This document shows positions 33,933 to 40,895 of a stretch of 41,197 bases of DNA, one piece after another. A program made the translations under genes and the position numbers. The first letter of the stretch is position 1, and each line of letters begins with the position of its first letter. Under the pieces are notes generated by a model. That model saw nothing but the letters and a program-made list of their open reading frames with translations, was not told where the DNA came from and made no database searches. Source of the DNA: Lysobacterales bacterium (GTDB taxonomy: Bacteria > Pseudomonadota > Gammaproteobacteria > Xanthomonadales > SZUA-36); the NCBI GenBank assembly GCA_013042915.1, contig JABDPF010000089.1, positions 1 through 41,197 of the forward strand, read 5' to 3'.

Positions 33933-34544
33933 TCAGAGGCGCGTCCGCACGAAGCTCACGGCGCCACCCAGCAGGAGCAGCAAGCCACCCAGCAAGGCAA
34001 AAGCGGGAACCTGGGTGGCCGTGGTCGGCAGCATCACAGGTGCTTCTTCTTCAACAGGGGCCGGGGCCGGCGGCGGAGGCGGCGGAGCGGCCTCTTCTTC
34101 CATAACCATCGGTTCTGCTTCGTCGGCCATGGCCTCTGCCTGTGCGGCCATCGGCACTGTCCAGGCGGTGTTCATCGGCAGGTACACGTTAACTTCCTGG
34201 CGGTCGGCCATGTCAACGATGCGAACCTTCTCTCCGCTGAGCTCGGCGTAGGCGTTCCTCTGGGGATAACGGCGCTGCGAAGCTGACCAGCTGCCGTCGG
34301 GAAGCTGCCACTGGACGATCGTGGAGTTCACGCTCTGACGAACGACGCGGGCACGGAACTTGGCGGCCATCGTTCCACCTTTTTCGACCACATCAAGACA
34401 GGCGTCGCCGATATTGGGGTTATCAGCCAGCACATCGGGGGCATAGACTAGGTCATCACAGCTTACGTCCTGCGCGCTTGCCATCGTCGCGAAACCGAGG
34501 CTTCCGACCACGATCAATGCAGAAATCACAAAAGTCTTGTTCAT
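33933..34544 (-). CDS. Small exported protein with LPXTA-type sortase sorting signal
   Basis: 203 residues; no family recognised. Seen: signal peptide ending ATMASAQ (cleavage near 24); a mature domain of about 125 residues with two cysteines (C29, C49) and mixed strands (RARVVRQSVNSTIVQWQLPDGSW); an acidic, Pro-rich linker (149-170, with six consecutive prolines); then LPTTA at 172-176, a hydrophobic helix (about 181-198) and the basic tail VRTRL. That is a complete cell-wall-sorting signal. A GAGGGAA site precedes the ATG. It lies 12 bases after a sortase gene and before a terminator, so it is almost certainly that enzyme's substrate. What it is attached to in a Gram-negative envelope is unknown. 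Confidence 0.85.
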   Translation of the reverse strand: MNKTFVISALIVVGSLGFATMASAQDVSCDDLVYAPDVLADNPNIGDACLDVVEKGGTMAAKFRARVVRQSVNSTIVQWQLPDGSWSASQRRYPQRNAYAELSGEKVRIVDMADRQEVNVYLPMNTAWTVPMAAQAEAMADEAEPMVMEEEAAPPPPPPAPAPVEEEAPVMLPTTATQVPAFALLGGLLLLLGGAVSFVRTRL

Positions 34545-34556
34545 AGTTCCCTCACT

Positions 34557-35294
34557 CTAAGTTTTTGCCAAAGGATGTTCAGCGACAGCCTTCACGATGA
34601 ACCGTTTCGGCGCTTGCCCAACATAATAAAAAGGATAGCAGGTCACCAGAGTCAGTGTTTTTTCCGCCGTGGTAGCGAGTACGGAAACGTCGTCCGGTTC
34701 TACGATCTCGAGCGATGATACCGCGTAGGTGACTGTCCCGCCAGCGGTTTTCAATATCACGGTGTCTCCGACCTCGATATCTTTCAAGGGCCGGAAGAAG
34801 CTGTCCCGATGGGCCGCGATACCTAGGTTGCCGTCGGTGTCGATTCGCGCCGTGCCCCGGATACGTCCGGCACCTCGATTGAGATTGAAGTCGTCGGCGC
34901 CGTCGTAGACCGGAACCGCGAGCCCAAGAGGGTCGATACGGAGCACCGCCAGGGGCACATCGTTTGCCGCCTCGGATGTCTCCTGGTATGCGCGGATACG
35001 CTGTTCGTCCCAAAGCTCCTGGTTCGGCGCGGGTAGCAGAACGCCCGGCGAGACGTCGGCAGGGAGGCTGGACGGCAGACGGCCCGGCCGCTGGTCTGCA
35101 TCACCACTTTGCGAACCGAGGTCTGCCGGGGCAGACTGGGCGACATTGCGCTCGAACGACTCGAGCCCTTCCTCCCGCGAGCGTTCCGCGTCGCTGCGCA
35201 GGAACGCAAACACGGCAATCAGGACGACGCCAGCCAGGTAAAGGGCGGCTTCGAGCCATCCCAGTTTTCGTTTCAGCGCCTTGTTGCCAGCCAA
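34557..35294 (-). CDS. Class D-like sortase (transpeptidase)
   Basis: A 245-residue sortase. Seen: an N-terminal membrane helix (about 12-32); a Ser/Pro/Asp-rich periplasmic linker; and a sortase domain from about 112, with all three catalytic residues: H162 in IAAHRDSFFRPL, C219 in TLVTCYPFYYVG and R231 in PKRFIV. The HRDxFFRPL and TCYPFYY.G..PxRF patterns fit class D sortases. Known: sortases cleave an LPXT-type motif and join the protein to an amine acceptor. The start is TTG at 35294 with GGAGA upstream. It is the first gene of a two-gene unit with its likely LPTTA substrate; no second sortase or VIT/VWA target is present. Confidence 0.9.
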   Translation of the reverse strand: MAGNKALKRKLGWLEAALYLAGVVLIAVFAFLRSDAERSREEGLESFERNVAQSAPADLGSQSGDADQRPGRLPSSLPADVSPGVLLPAPNQELWDEQRIRAYQETSEAANDVPLAVLRIDPLGLAVPVYDGADDFNLNRGAGRIRGTARIDTDGNLGIAAHRDSFFRPLKDIEVGDTVILKTAGGTVTYAVSSLEIVEPDDVSVLATTAEKTLTLVTCYPFYYVGQAPKRFIVKAVAEHPLAKT

Positions 35295-35368: not shown

Positions 35369-35374
35369 TATAAT
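35369..35374 (+). promoter_or_regulatory. Candidate -10 element for the DUF481 gene
   Basis: TATAAT at 35369-35374, 41 bases before the ATG at 35415, with a good AGGAGA ribosome-binding site at 35403-35408. No convincing -35 is seen. The 120-base gap to the sortase start must also hold the sortase promoter. Confidence 0.5.
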
Positions 35375-35414
35375 GCCGCACTTTATTTCAGATGGAATGA
35401 TCAGGAGAGACTCC

Positions 35415-36425
35415 ATGTACCCGAGAATTATCCCCTTGGCCGCTGCCATGCTGCTGCTGTCCGCATTGTGCCCGCAGTCCGCGTTCGCGGACCAGGTGCG
35501 CATGAGTAACGGCGACATCATCACCGGCGCCATCAGCAAGATCGAAGACGGCAAGGTATTCATCAAGCCCCCCTACGCGGAGGAATTCTCCGTTGATCTT
35601 CCCGAAGTCACGTCAATGGAGGCTGAAAAGACCTTCGAGGTCGTGCTGGAGGACGGCTCAGAGGTGGAAGCGAGCTTCGCCCACGGCGAGAACGGCATGC
35701 AGACCCTCGTCGTCGACAGCGGACCGATCGACATCGCCATGGCCGACCTTACATTGGCCACCGAGCCCGAGCCTTATTTCGAACGCACGTCCAATGCCGA
35801 AATCAACATGACCTGGAACGACGGCAACACCGACAGTCAGAGCAACCTGATCTATCTCGATACCGCCTTGCGCATGGGCGAACACCGTCACCAGGGTGAC
35901 CTGACGTTTCGCCGCGACAAGACCGACGATGTCTACACGAAGAAGCAGGATCTGCTCCGTTACAACTACAACTGGCTGTTCGCGAATCCCTGGTACCTCG
36001 GCGCCACGGCCACTTACGAGCGCGACCCGATCAAGGAACTGGACCATCGCTACACCGTGGGTGTGTTGATGGGCCGGGATTTATTCAACGACGACAATCG
36101 ATTCCTGAGCATCAGCCTTGGCGCCGGCTACACGGATGAGAAATTCTTCACCTCTCAGGATAGCGGTGCGACCGGGCTGTGGGCCTTGAATTACACCCAG
36201 GATTTCCGCGGTGGCAACCTCGGGTTCTTCCACAACCACACGCTCAATTACCAGTTTTTCGGCGAAAACAACGCCATTTTCAAGTCGAATACCGGCTTCC
36301 GCTACGACATCATCGGCAATGTGTACAGCAACGTTTCGATTCGCTACGACTACGAAACCGAGCCGCCCGCGGGCACCGAGAATGCAGACACGACCCTGGC
36401 GATCGGCTTGGGCGCCAGTTTCTGA
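35415..36425 (+). CDS. DUF481 family outer-membrane protein (YdiY-like)
   Basis: A 336-residue outer-membrane beta-barrel. Seen: signal peptide YPRIIPLAAAMLLLSALCPQ then SAFAD; a DQVRMSNGDIITGAISKIEDG start typical of DUF481 proteins (an SH3-like strand region, residues 26-115); and a barrel domain with alternating strands (SNAEINMTWNDGNTDSQSN, FRRDKTDDVYTKKQDLLRYN) closing in ADTTLAIGLGASF with a C-terminal phenylalanine, the outer-membrane assembly signal. The function of the family is not settled; some members respond to salt or acid. The ATG is fixed by AGGAGA at 35403-35408. Confidence 0.87.
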   Translation: MYPRIIPLAAAMLLLSALCPQSAFADQVRMSNGDIITGAISKIEDGKVFIKPPYAEEFSVDLPEVTSMEAEKTFEVVLEDGSEVEASFAHGENGMQTLVVDSGPIDIAMADLTLATEPEPYFERTSNAEINMTWNDGNTDSQSNLIYLDTALRMGEHRHQGDLTFRRDKTDDVYTKKQDLLRYNYNWLFANPWYLGATATYERDPIKELDHRYTVGVLMGRDLFNDDNRFLSISLGAGYTDEKFFTSQDSGATGLWALNYTQDFRGGNLGFFHNHTLNYQFFGENNAIFKSNTGFRYDIIGNVYSNVSIRYDYETEPPAGTENADTTLAIGLGASF

Positions 36426-37945: not shown

Positions 37946-40750
37946 CTAATCGATTCCCCGTTTCGGCTTACTCCGGGGAACGTTTTTCCGCGGCGGCGGA
38001 CTCGATTTCTGACGGTTAACCGGGGGCGCGCTTCGGGACGGGGACGGGGTGCTTTGGCTGTAACGTACCTTGGGCCGAGGCGCGGCTGCTGTCGCCGGTC
38101 GAGGCGCGGGCCGAGATTGCGGAGCCCTGGGCGCGCTGCGCTGGGTCAACTTCACCGGGGGCATCGATTTCGGCACGCGGTAGCCGGTTGAAGCCTTTGG
38201 GGCCGATTTCTGGACGGTGCGGGCCGGCCGGTACGGCTTGTTGATCACTGGCGGCTTTACTCTCGACACCGATTTACTCACCGGCGCCGGTTTGCGTGAC
38301 GACTTGCTGGTGACCACCTTGCGGTCCGCCCCGCTCGCGACGCGCTTCGGCGAGGGCGCTTTAGCCTTGGTGCTACCCGGCACCCGGCGCTTTGCGTCGG
38401 CGGTGCCCTTGGTATCGGCGGTCAAGCGCTTACCCTCGGCTCGCGCACGGTTGGCGGACCAGGCCTTTTCCCGATCGACCTTCATTCGAGTGTTGCCCAC
38501 TCCGGACGGCTTGGCGGGTGTCGCCTTGTTTTCGAGGCTTTTACGCGAAATGCCTCGCTTGTCCGGCAGGGTTTTGGAGCCAACCTTGGCGGACGACACC
38601 GCGGATCGCTTGGCCACCGGAGAACGCTTCTTGCTGCTTTCCATGGCTTTGCGCTGCAGCGCCTTGCGGCTCATGGGGTCAGGCGCCGGCTGCTGCGCAT
38701 AGCGCTTCACCGGCGATTGCTTGGCCTTGGACCGGGCCATGCCGGACTCGCTTGCCTTCGCTTTTCGGGCAAGATCACCACGGCTGACCGCCGGGCTGCT
38801 CGCGTACGACGGCTTCTCGTTCAGGCTGCTTTCGAAGCGCTTTCCCTTGGAGGGAGCGTTCTTGGCAAGCAGAGAACCCTGCGCTACCGTGCGGTCCCAG
38901 GTCGCCGGCTGCCGATCACGCGTCTGGCGCACGGGGCCGCGCTGCCGGCTGTCGGCGTACAGGTTGCGGTGCCGCTCATAATCATGAGGACGATAGCCTC
39001 CACCGTGGCCCGGCTGGCGATGGCCCGGACGCCGGTAGTGATGCGAGGGCCGGTGGTGATGGTGCCTCGGTCGGTAACCGTGCGGCCCCCAATAACTGTA
39101 ATGGCGATGGTGCCAGTAGTGGCGATGGTGCCAGTAACCACCGGTCCAATAGCTGAAATCGAAGGGTCCCCAGGCCCAGCTGAGACCGAAATTCCAGCCG
39201 TACCAGGGATCGTAGTTGACATGGAATCCCCAGGTGCTCCGACGCGGATAATACTGGCGGTAGGAAACCCAGGGTCGATAGTACCAACCAGAACCATAAA
39301 CGACGGTAGGCCCATACACGTAACTGCCGACGTAGCCCGGCGTGTAGCCGACGTAGACCACCTCGGGCGTGTAGTCATATATATATACGTACTTGACCGG
39401 GTAAACCGGGGAGGTCGGCTGGATCACGCGCACCTGGTCGGGCCGTGCCACGGCCACCTGCCATGGCCCCTCCGGCTGCGTGGATACGTACCACACACCG
39501 TCTTCCACGAGGTAATACAAGCCGTCGGAGTAAAGCACCGTGGAGCCAGAATTGGCGGCGTAAACCATATCGGTTCCGTCGACTTCTTCGAACTGGGGCT
39601 CCCCGTCGTATTCGACGTCGACGTCGGCCTCGCCACGCTGGACAGCGGCGGTCTGTGGAACCTGCGCATCCAGCACGGCCTGCTCCGCCTCTTGCGTTCC
39701 AGCGACGAATACGCGAGCGTCCGCCTGCTCGGATGCCTCGGGAATTTCAGCGAATGCGGTGGGCAACTCCGCGGAATCCCGGAACGCCCAGGGCCCGTCG
39801 AGCGAACGGGATTGATACCAGCGCCCGGAAAGCACGATGTAGTAGCGCTGCTCGCCCGTGTGCATGAACACGTCGTCTTCAGAATTATTGAGCACCAGCA
39901 GGTCATCGACCAGCGGTACGAAAGCCGCCGGCCCCTCGGTAACGATCAGCTCGGCGGGTTCGGTCGAAACCACGATCTCCGGTGCGTTTTCGGCGTTGAT
40001 TTCCAGCGCCTCTGCGCCGCTTTCCGCCTCGGTAGATTCGTCCTCAGGCTTCACGAGCGCAGCGATGTCGGCCGGCGGATCGCTTTCGAAACGATAGGGT
40101 CCCGTGGCATTCTCGGCCTGGTACCACGCACCGTCCGCAACGTTGAGATAATAACGCTTGCCGTCGCGGATCAGCGGGTATGGCGTATTGATCACCGCCT
40201 CGAAGGCGCTGTCCTCGATGTCGCGGATCACCGGCTCTCCGTCGATCGTGACCAGCAGTGCCGGTCGGTCGCGATAGATGATCTTCGGGGGGGTGGTGTT
40301 GAGTTTTTCAGCGGCAAGGGCCTCGGCTTGTGCTGCTTGCCGGGACGCCTCGAGCGAATCGAGAGAAAAGCTGAAATTGGCGGCAAACCCCGGCTGAGCC
40401 ATCGCCTCGCCAAGCCGCTTCTGCACATCGGCCTCCATCGGGAAGCGTGTTTGGGTCACTTTCATCCCGACCGGGTGGGCCGTGCGGCTGAAACGGTCGA
40501 CCTTGAGATCGGATTCGAACCAGCCCGCGCCAAACACAGGCTCTGCCTCCTTCGTTTCCCGGTAAGCCAGCGCTGCCCGGAAGCTGACGAAAGATTCGTC
40601 CATTTCTTCTACTTGCGGTTCATAAACCGTGACAGATCCGCCGTCGTCGAGCGAGATGGTTCGGGGCCACTCGCCTTCCTGCGCGAGGGCAGGTGCCAAG
40701 CCGAGCAGCATCAGCAATACCCATAGAATGTTTCGCATTGTCGCGTTCAT
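37946..40750 (-). CDS. Large exported protein: three YYxxxxGxWY repeats, Tyr/Trp/His-rich domain, Lys/Arg/Ser/Pro tail
   Basis: 934 residues from the ATG at 40750 (GGAG nine bases upstream). Seen: signal peptide (MRNILWVLLMLLGLAPALAQ); an acidic N-terminal half containing three copies of a YY-x4-6-G-x-WY...GPW motif at about 199, 302 and 411; a Tyr/Gly/Val-rich stretch (EVVYVGYTPGYVGSYVYG); a Trp/Tyr/His-rich part with duplicated YWHHRH and HHHH (about 540-570); then about 330 residues of low-complexity, strongly basic sequence. It resembles proteins labelled carbohydrate-binding family V/XII in alphaproteobacteria, but I claim no function. The basic tail might bind DNA, LPS or peptidoglycan. 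The BamA-like gene lies upstream on the same strand. Confidence 0.8.
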   Translation of the reverse strand: MNATMRNILWVLLMLLGLAPALAQEGEWPRTISLDDGGSVTVYEPQVEEMDESFVSFRAALAYRETKEAEPVFGAGWFESDLKVDRFSRTAHPVGMKVTQTRFPMEADVQKRLGEAMAQPGFAANFSFSLDSLEASRQAAQAEALAAEKLNTTPPKIIYRDRPALLVTIDGEPVIRDIEDSAFEAVINTPYPLIRDGKRYYLNVADGAWYQAENATGPYRFESDPPADIAALVKPEDESTEAESGAEALEINAENAPEIVVSTEPAELIVTEGPAAFVPLVDDLLVLNNSEDDVFMHTGEQRYYIVLSGRWYQSRSLDGPWAFRDSAELPTAFAEIPEASEQADARVFVAGTQEAEQAVLDAQVPQTAAVQRGEADVDVEYDGEPQFEEVDGTDMVYAANSGSTVLYSDGLYYLVEDGVWYVSTQPEGPWQVAVARPDQVRVIQPTSPVYPVKYVYIYDYTPEVVYVGYTPGYVGSYVYGPTVVYGSGWYYRPWVSYRQYYPRRSTWGFHVNYDPWYGWNFGLSWAWGPFDFSYWTGGYWHHRHYWHHRHYSYWGPHGYRPRHHHHRPSHHYRRPGHRQPGHGGGYRPHDYERHRNLYADSRQRGPVRQTRDRQPATWDRTVAQGSLLAKNAPSKGKRFESSLNEKPSYASSPAVSRGDLARKAKASESGMARSKAKQSPVKRYAQQPAPDPMSRKALQRKAMESSKKRSPVAKRSAVSSAKVGSKTLPDKRGISRKSLENKATPAKPSGVGNTRMKVDREKAWSANRARAEGKRLTADTKGTADAKRRVPGSTKAKAPSPKRVASGADRKVVTSKSSRKPAPVSKSVSRVKPPVINKPYRPARTVQKSAPKASTGYRVPKSMPPVKLTQRSAPRAPQSRPAPRPATAAAPRPKVRYSQSTPSPSRSAPPVNRQKSSPPPRKNVPRSKPKRGID

Positions 40751-40895
40751 AAACTGCGTCTCCGTGCTTCGAACGATCACCAGCGCGGATGGGTCGCGCT
40801 TGGTTTTCGGCACGCTCAATATACTTTCGCGGCACTGAACGCAGGGTGAACGGATCGCGTTTTTTCAAATCGGCCATCCAGGGGAATTGCACGAC

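Follow-up and report, generated by a model that had tools for sequence, protein, structure and literature searches.

In this study we describe a two-gene locus in a window of 41,197 nucleotides (the whole stretch of DNA that was analysed, positions 1 to 41,197 of contig JABDPF010000089.1 of a Lysobacterales bacterium), in which a gene for a class-D-like sortase is followed by a gene for a small exported protein ending in an LPTTA sorting signal. With moderate confidence we propose that the pair is an anchoring module, in which the sortase would tether its substrate, predicted to contain an OB-like barrel, covalently to the periplasmic peptidoglycan of a diderm bacterium bearing lipopolysaccharide (LPS). 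The proposal builds on the pairing of the genes, the catalytic residues, the sorting signal, the conservation of both proteins, the affinity of the enzyme to class D and the presence of LptD in the host genome, all of which were observed. The coordinates of the features are collected in the table.

The product of the first gene belongs to the sortase superfamily, as it scored 98.4 bits with PF04203, the Pfam sortase domain, at a cut-off of 26.6. The TTG start codon was assigned because of the alignment with relatives, and an N-terminal hydrophobic helix lies, as judged by eye, at about residues 14-32. A sequence-only reading of this DNA had named H162, C219 and R231 as the catalytic residues; these correspond to real codons and were invariant in all 24 aligned sortases (the window row included), and each of the 89 class-D-like sequences used for the tree carries them too. 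The same reading had placed a small exported protein with LPTTA, a hydrophobic helix and a basic tail 12 bases further on, and we found it there, on the minus strand.

Features of the sortase-substrate locus in the window
Feature	Position	Strand	Basis
Class-D-like sortase gene, 245 residues, TTG start	34557..35294	-	Open reading frame (ORF) and PF04203 match
Catalytic His162 codon, HRD motif	34809..34811	-	CAT on the minus strand
Catalytic Cys219 codon, TLVTCYPF motif	34638..34640	-	TGC on the minus strand
Catalytic Arg231 codon	34602..34604	-	CGG on the minus strand
Intergenic stretch of 12 bases from sortase stop to substrate ATG, with Shine-Dalgarno-like GAGGGA as putative ribosome-binding site of the substrate	34545..34556	-	Read by eye
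Substrate precursor gene, 203 residues	33933..34544	-	ORF
Signal-peptide-like segment, residues ~1-24, ending ASA	34473..34544	-	Sequence and substrate alignment; putative cleavage site
Predicted mature globular part, residues ~29-128, with Cys29 and Cys49; OB-like beta barrel from ~residue 51	34161..34460	-	AlphaFold2 prediction
Pro/Ala/Glu-rich stalk, residues 129-171	34032..34160	-	P, A or E at 31 of 43 residues
LPTTA sorting motif, residues 172-176	34017..34031	-	Conserved in the substrate alignment
Predicted hydrophobic helix (residues 179-202) and basic tail RTRL	33936..34010	-	AlphaFold2 model
Stem-loop between converging genes, probable bidirectional terminator	33859..33886		Fold z-score

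The class of the enzyme was judged from curated family models. The two NCBIfam class D models ranked highest, NF058671 ('LPxTATN-specific') with 128.7 bits and NF033746 with 116.7 bits, followed by the models of class GN (83.2 bits), C (80.6), E (77.3) and F (13.4). Because the class D scores fall below the curated cut-offs (140 and 165 bits, respectively), we call the enzyme class-D-like. All 24 aligned sortases matched both class D models, and the E, GN and C models matched as well, at higher best expectation values (E). The best matches among profiles of solved structures were 2ln7 (101.9 bits) and 4d70 (76.3 bits), both treated as class D enzymes in the portion of PMC4498605 used here, and class C sortases were also among the solved relatives. 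The class GN model, TIGR03784, has a cut-off of 158.25 bits, far above the 83.2 bits reached by the window sortase. Judged by these family models, the window sortase is class-D-like and separate from class GN.

The sorting signal was conserved as well. In the alignment of 39 substrates the proline and the threonine of the motif were present in every row, and the fifth residue was alanine in 37 rows and glycine in two. The window substrate reads LPTTAT, the LPXTA(T) form expected of a partner of a class D enzyme. With the Pfam anchor model the window protein stayed below the cut-off, whereas its relatives at loci L088 and L083 exceeded it. In the AlphaFold2 model the predicted local distance difference test score, taken per ten-residue block, was 87-97 over residues 31-130 and 59-69 over residues 131-180. 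No match at E ≤ 0.001 was obtained when this model was searched against the PDB (best structural Z 4.2), and the acidobacterial substrate model, which is weaker (predicted template modelling score 0.38), gave a best structural Z of 5.8. Many of the weak structural matches were OB-type barrels (EF-P/eIF5A, proteasomal ATPase OB domains, CusF and ModE). However, such matches may merely reflect a common arrangement of strands, and therefore no function was read from them. A known domain was rejected as an identity for the mature part, since the scanned substrate proteins had no over-cut-off Pfam or NCBIfam match there; the acidobacterial relative L083 gave a sub-threshold match to CusF_Ec (18.1 of 27 bits). 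Cys29 and Cys49 were found in all 39 rows of the alignment, and the presence of this pair in the branch of the window would suit an oxidising periplasm.

The two genes stay together across the order. In a set of 61 genomes of relatives, the own genome included, we detected the substrate in 24, and all 24 proteins (the window protein among them) end in [LM]PxT[AG], a hydrophobic stretch and a basic tail. A homologous sortase ORF lay directly upstream on the same strand in 23 of these genomes; in the 24th (G030), which is cut by the contig end, the C-terminus of the sortase was present. We also sampled 299 genomes of the order, the own genome included, with which the set of 61 largely overlaps. 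Here the profiles located the substrate at 37 places in 36 genomes and sortases in 117 genomes. The sortase scores formed two groups, with 42 matches of at least 195 bits in 34 genomes (hand count) and the other full-length matches at 86 bits or below, the latter including the class GN enzyme of the host itself. Co-occurrence of substrate and sortase, which the sequence-only reading had proposed as a check, held at 34 of the 37 substrate places, where the substrate lay at most 230 bases downstream of a class-D-like sortase. It failed at three: in G180 the sortase was about 12 kb away on the same contig, in G129 the substrate was broken by a stop, and in G060 nothing but the tail was matched (22 bits), beside an 82-bit sortase. 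Homologues without a sortase neighbour, which that reading had named as a refuting case, are thus marginal. Likewise, a Cellvibrio metagenome-assembled genome (MAG) carries tandem substrate homologues (L077:1359-1904 and 2081-2533), the second of which ends without a sorting signal.

Within the family of the window the substrate was present in 24 of the 39 sampled genomes (hand count), adjacent to the sortase in all 24. Among 321 evenly sampled gammaproteobacterial genomes, class-D-like matches were obtained only in the own genome of the window, and 41 other genomes carried sortases scoring at most 93 bits. The substrate profile matched two of these 321 genomes, the second match (27.9 bits) covering the stalk and tail. 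Therefore, the module is frequent in the family of the window and patchy elsewhere.

Beyond the order, searching named genomes with the aligned sortases yielded at least 592 stretches, of which 550 were confirmed; the counts across phyla refer to the best 80 of these 550 loci. Forty of them came from Pseudomonadota (including Lysobacterales and Chromatiales MAGs, Wenzhouxiangella, Povalibacter, Pseudoalteromonas and Parahaliea) and 40 from Acidobacteriota (including Granulicella, Edaphobacter and Sulfotelmatobacter), with a few genomes contributing two. A sorting-signal ORF was found within 1 kb of the sortase at 33 of the 40 loci of Pseudomonadota and 27 of the 40 of Acidobacteriota. Altogether, 61 such ORFs were counted in about 324 kb near the sortases, compared with three in about 379 kb farther off in the same 80 loci; one of the near ORFs (at L096) is probably due to chance, and two of the distant ones (at L057 and L108) are relatives of the substrate. 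Gene order was reversed at L061, L063 and L096, and the two genes lay on different strands at L070, L073, L078, L080, L081 and L091. The varied order and strands indicate that the pairing is not one frozen operon. The 20 aligned acidobacterial substrates contain two copies of a domain of about 55 residues (hhalign, copy against copy, 99.5 per cent), which matched the core of the window family with hhalign probabilities of 97.4 and 96.0 per cent. Moreover, AlphaFold2 predicted the same order of elements in both families, namely a long strand, a strand, a short strand, a hairpin, a short helix and a strand. Such loci also occur in cultured isolates: Wenzhouxiangella sediminis (L054), Parahaliea maris (L101), Pseudoalteromonas sp. 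G4 (L088) and Edaphobacter modestus (L107).

Comparison with known systems places the pair nearest to the class D sortases of Bacilli. The system represented by 2ln7 (SrtC/SrtD, with the LPNTA substrates BasI and BasH), which also gave the best solved-structure match, shares with the window the HRD and TLxTCYPF motifs, an LPXTA motif and dedicated substrates; according to the available part of PMC3297441, it operates on a wall of the diaminopimelate type, as would be expected here. It differs in that the host of the window is an LPS-bearing diderm, the sorted protein has a predicted OB-like domain, the window sortase stays under both curated class D cut-offs and there is no known sporulation context. 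The Clostridium class D sortase 4d70 is, in the section of PMC4498605 consulted, encoded in an operon with a single presumed LPQTGS substrate, as here, but its motif ends in G and its host is Gram-positive. Class D sortases on Priestia plasmids (L185 and L187) are accompanied by one small exported protein with LPETA or LPKTA (178 and 176 residues, respectively) and a charged stalk, whereas the substrate gene lies upstream, the host is monoderm and the mature domain, by eye, is unlike that of the window. The only over-cut-off Pfam match of these small proteins was the anchor motif. As a separate observation, a gene annotated as a redoxin lies beside a class D sortase on a Planococcus plasmid (L186:1797-2282) and has an in-frame TGA at codon 52, the position at which a redoxin would be expected to carry its peroxidatic cysteine; it possibly encodes selenocysteine, or the gene is broken.

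The sequence-only reading had proposed a little-studied, different kind of one-enzyme-one-substrate system. A conserved module outside class GN, in a genome with no second sorting signal at E ≤ 10 (searched with a tail-region profile built with the window row), agrees with the one-to-one part of this proposal. However, novelty of the kind in itself is not supported, since LPXTA class D sortases beside presumed substrates are described for Bacilli in the excerpted parts of PMC3617157 and PMC4498605, and the layout is not new either, given the Priestia plasmids. Among Gram-negative bacteria, the class GN sortase and its marine proteobacterial target resemble the window pair in being one sortase with one target, and both systems reside in the host genome, but class GN is another family by its curated model and has a large VWA target with another tail motif. 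The PEP-CTERM/EpsH (exosortase) system likewise combines a C-terminal motif, helix and basic tail with a dedicated enzyme in Gram-negative hosts; EpsH, however, is a multi-helix membrane protein that is not homologous to sortases (both points from the part of PMC1569441 at hand). An older text (PMC1586193) mentions, in the part seen, one proteobacterial sortase that is divergent and whose function is uncertain; it may be the class GN enzyme.

The host genome (2.69 Mb in 105 contigs, 96 per cent complete) encodes LptD (300 bits), and therefore the host has an outer membrane of the LPS type. In such a cell the substrate would be exported through its signal peptide, a Cys29-Cys49 disulfide would probably form in the periplasm, and the C-terminal helix and basic tail would hold the protein at the inner membrane, where the sortase is expected to reside with its catalytic side facing the periplasm. 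What could follow is suggested by the Bacillus sortase C, which, in the passages of PMC3297441 used, cuts LPNTA between T and A with the m-diaminopimelate of cross-bridges as the nucleophile, and which part of PMC4498605 treats as class D. Class D subfamily 4 recognises LPXTA, and class D enzymes often adjoin their presumed substrate, in which a negatively charged linker precedes the motif (PMC3617157, in part); the window shows the same layout, with an adjacent substrate and a linker before the motif. By analogy, Cys219 would attack the LPTT|A bond and form a thioacyl intermediate at the second threonine, which would then be transferred to an amine, most likely that of the meso-diaminopimelate side chain in lipid II or nascent peptidoglycan. 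Since the walls of Pseudomonadota usually have meso-diaminopimelate as their diamino acid, the same chemistry could run unchanged in the periplasm. The end product would be a small barrel of predicted OB-like fold on a Pro/Glu stalk, bound to the wall within the periplasm. Our best guess is that the tethered domain acts in the envelope either structurally or by binding a partner.

Several observations weigh against this proposal. The anchoring itself is deduced from sequence and models, and meso-diaminopimelate is assumed to be the diamino acid of this wall from general knowledge of Pseudomonadota. The window sortase misses both class D cut-offs, and the substrate scored 23.0 and 26.8 bits with the sorting-signal model NF058670 (LPxTATN), whose cut-off is 32. 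The mature part lacks cysteines in four of six relatives outside the 39-row alignment and in 19 of the 20 acidobacterial rows, and the cysteine pair was accordingly dropped as a mark of the whole family. The tree (101 rows, 89 of them diderm class-D-like, and 140 columns, with long branches and unsettled bootstrap), which the sequence-only reading had also proposed, did not by itself place the classes firmly; the grouping with class GN that the reading had named as refuting was not borne out by the family models. When left free, it placed three class GN rows, on long branches, inside the class-D-like rows beside Wenzhouxiangella (96/84), and grouped the class D sortases of Bacillota with class C/E rows (99/98), likewise on a long branch. 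Constraint tests rejected neither the grouping of the 89 diderm rows (approximately unbiased test, p-AU 0.354) nor that of these rows with Bacillota class D (0.275). Furthermore, nine of the 42 class-D-like sortases in the order had no adjacent substrate match, and among the best 80 loci a sorting signal within 1 kb was missing at seven of the 40 from Pseudomonadota and 13 of the 40 from Acidobacteriota. Three of the seven (L050, L056 and L110) are contigs with unpaired paralogues, two (L055 and L105) end within 0.2 kb, L057 has a signal 2.6 kb away and L085 has none; also among the signal-less loci, the contig of L082 runs out within 0.4 kb downstream and a signal lies 2-3 kb away at L108.

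The acceptor is the step at which another explanation could enter. The pair might be genuine and the acceptor other than peptidoglycan. If water, another protein or a lipid-linked amine resolved the intermediate, the sortase would in effect be a releasing protease or a lipid-anchoring enzyme. A relative of the substrate beside a paralogous sortase (L178:4609-5136 in G033, 35.6 bits) has a frame that stops right after LPTTG, without a membrane helix or basic tail, which implies that the canonical membrane-held route is not followed by every relative. In addition, a wall-anchored periplasmic protein of a diderm would have no surface exposure, and the benefit would presumably differ from that in Gram-positive bacteria. 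On the other hand, the stalk and sorting signal are the architecture of wall-anchored proteins, and diaminopimelate, usual in this phylum, is also the acceptor of the nearest characterised class D enzyme (PMC3297441, as excerpted). We therefore consider a different acceptor unlikely and retain peptidoglycan as the probable one.

The host genome encodes three sortases: that of the window, a second class-D-like enzyme on contig C84 and a class GN enzyme on contig C62. The C84 enzyme (C84:36667-37137; L004:12512-13168) could in principle be the main enzyme for the substrate, with the adjacent sortase redundant or acting elsewhere. No sorting-signal gene was seen beside it (the contig ends about 0.5 kb downstream), nor, as described above, a second signal in the genome, and all seven unpaired class-D-like sortases of the family, out of nine in the order, sit in genomes that also hold the pair. 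Nevertheless, the adjacent pair occurs in 24 of the 39 sampled family genomes and the unpaired enzyme in only seven, and the unpaired enzyme at L178 comes with a separate, diverged partner, which makes this explanation very unlikely. Eight of the nine unpaired sortases were included in the tree, where five, the host's own among them, clustered beside the window group; L175 was left out, its sortase ORF having been lost to an overlapping antisense ORF. Some unpaired loci share a neighbour (L004/L174, L173/L176, L173/L177, L176/L177 and L179/L180), and none was common to all unpaired-paralogue loci.

We attach very little weight to the idea that the pair is a class GN marine system whose target has been shortened or split, or that the small protein is served by the host's class GN sortase. 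Class GN is a described Gram-negative kind, it is present in the same genome (the C62 sortase scored 163 bits, above the cut-off), and class GN rows fell among the class-D-like rows in the free tree. However, the C62 enzyme is separate and follows its own target (L005:2041-4161), a protein of 706 residues with a VWA domain (418 residues scanned) and TQTATGW, not LPXTA, in its tail region; the gap between the two groups of order-wide scores also argues against this idea. We rejected the filing under class GN on the curated score of the window sortase and on this separate GN/VWA pair. The sequence-only reading had held a VIT/VWA partner to be absent, which is true of the window locus, where the neighbours of the sortase are a DUF481 gene and the small-substrate gene and no VWA gene adjoins it, and untrue of the genome. 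Finally, polymerisation of the small protein into a fibre in the style of class C pilins, through a lysine of the next subunit, is highly improbable. The solved relatives include class C sortases, and the simplest pilus would need no more than a single sortase and a single repeated small subunit, but the class C model scored 80.6 bits against a cut-off of 160, no second sorting-signal protein was found in the genome, and the mature domain lacks the conserved lysine of pilins (best column 22 of 39 rows; none in the counted region of L058), for want of which this candidate was rejected.

The surroundings of the anchoring module gave few clues to its role. Downstream, a gene for an Rrf2-type regulator converges on the substrate gene across the stem-loop, a 12-bp stem with A and T tracts; the 81 nt of which it is part have a folding energy of -40.3 kcal/mol (z -7.06). 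The bidirectional terminator claimed in the sequence-only reading is probable in view of this strong fold, whereas the terminator pattern scan did not list it, because the T run sits inside the stem. A DUF481 protein is encoded divergently from the sortase (35373-36425, plus strand), and a homologue of it adjoins the pair in two named relatives (L034 and L036), with different upstream neighbours in others. When 20 of 34 loci were compared, downstream genes were common to several relatives and upstream genes were mostly variable, and no pathway was indicated. Elsewhere in the window, positions 37946-40819 (minus strand) encode a protein of 957 residues that begins like a signal peptide and has a high content of His, Tyr, Pro and Lys; no Pfam match was obtained for it up to E = 1.

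Anchoring by sortases is usually presented as a feature of Gram-positive bacteria, and the Gram-negative sortase with its own family model has so far been class GN with its VWA target. One sortase with one adjacent LPXTA protein is already known in Bacilli, as are the class D family models. We found no class D sortase/substrate pair reported from Pseudomonadota or Acidobacteriota among the titles and abstract openings listed by open-access searches, although such a report may exist. Within that scope, what appears new is a diderm class-D-like branch, set apart from class GN by the family models, and its own small OB-like substrate family common to both phyla. For the broader claim, that a distinct diderm branch of class D in Pseudomonadota and Acidobacteriota links in each case one small OB-barrel protein covalently to periplasmic peptidoglycan, we see the case as evenly balanced. 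A natural LPXTA sortase working in the periplasm may also serve as a ligation enzyme. The window pair would represent a second, separate Gram-negative kind of sortase in the simplest layout, which recurs in two phyla and can be found in cultured isolates. What a sortase joins in a cell with two membranes can thus be tested directly, a single gene deletion and a single protein being enough. If the proposal is true, a protein-to-wall bond of a kind not encountered in the literature covered would be formed in Gram-negative envelopes by a sortase instead of L,D-transpeptidases.

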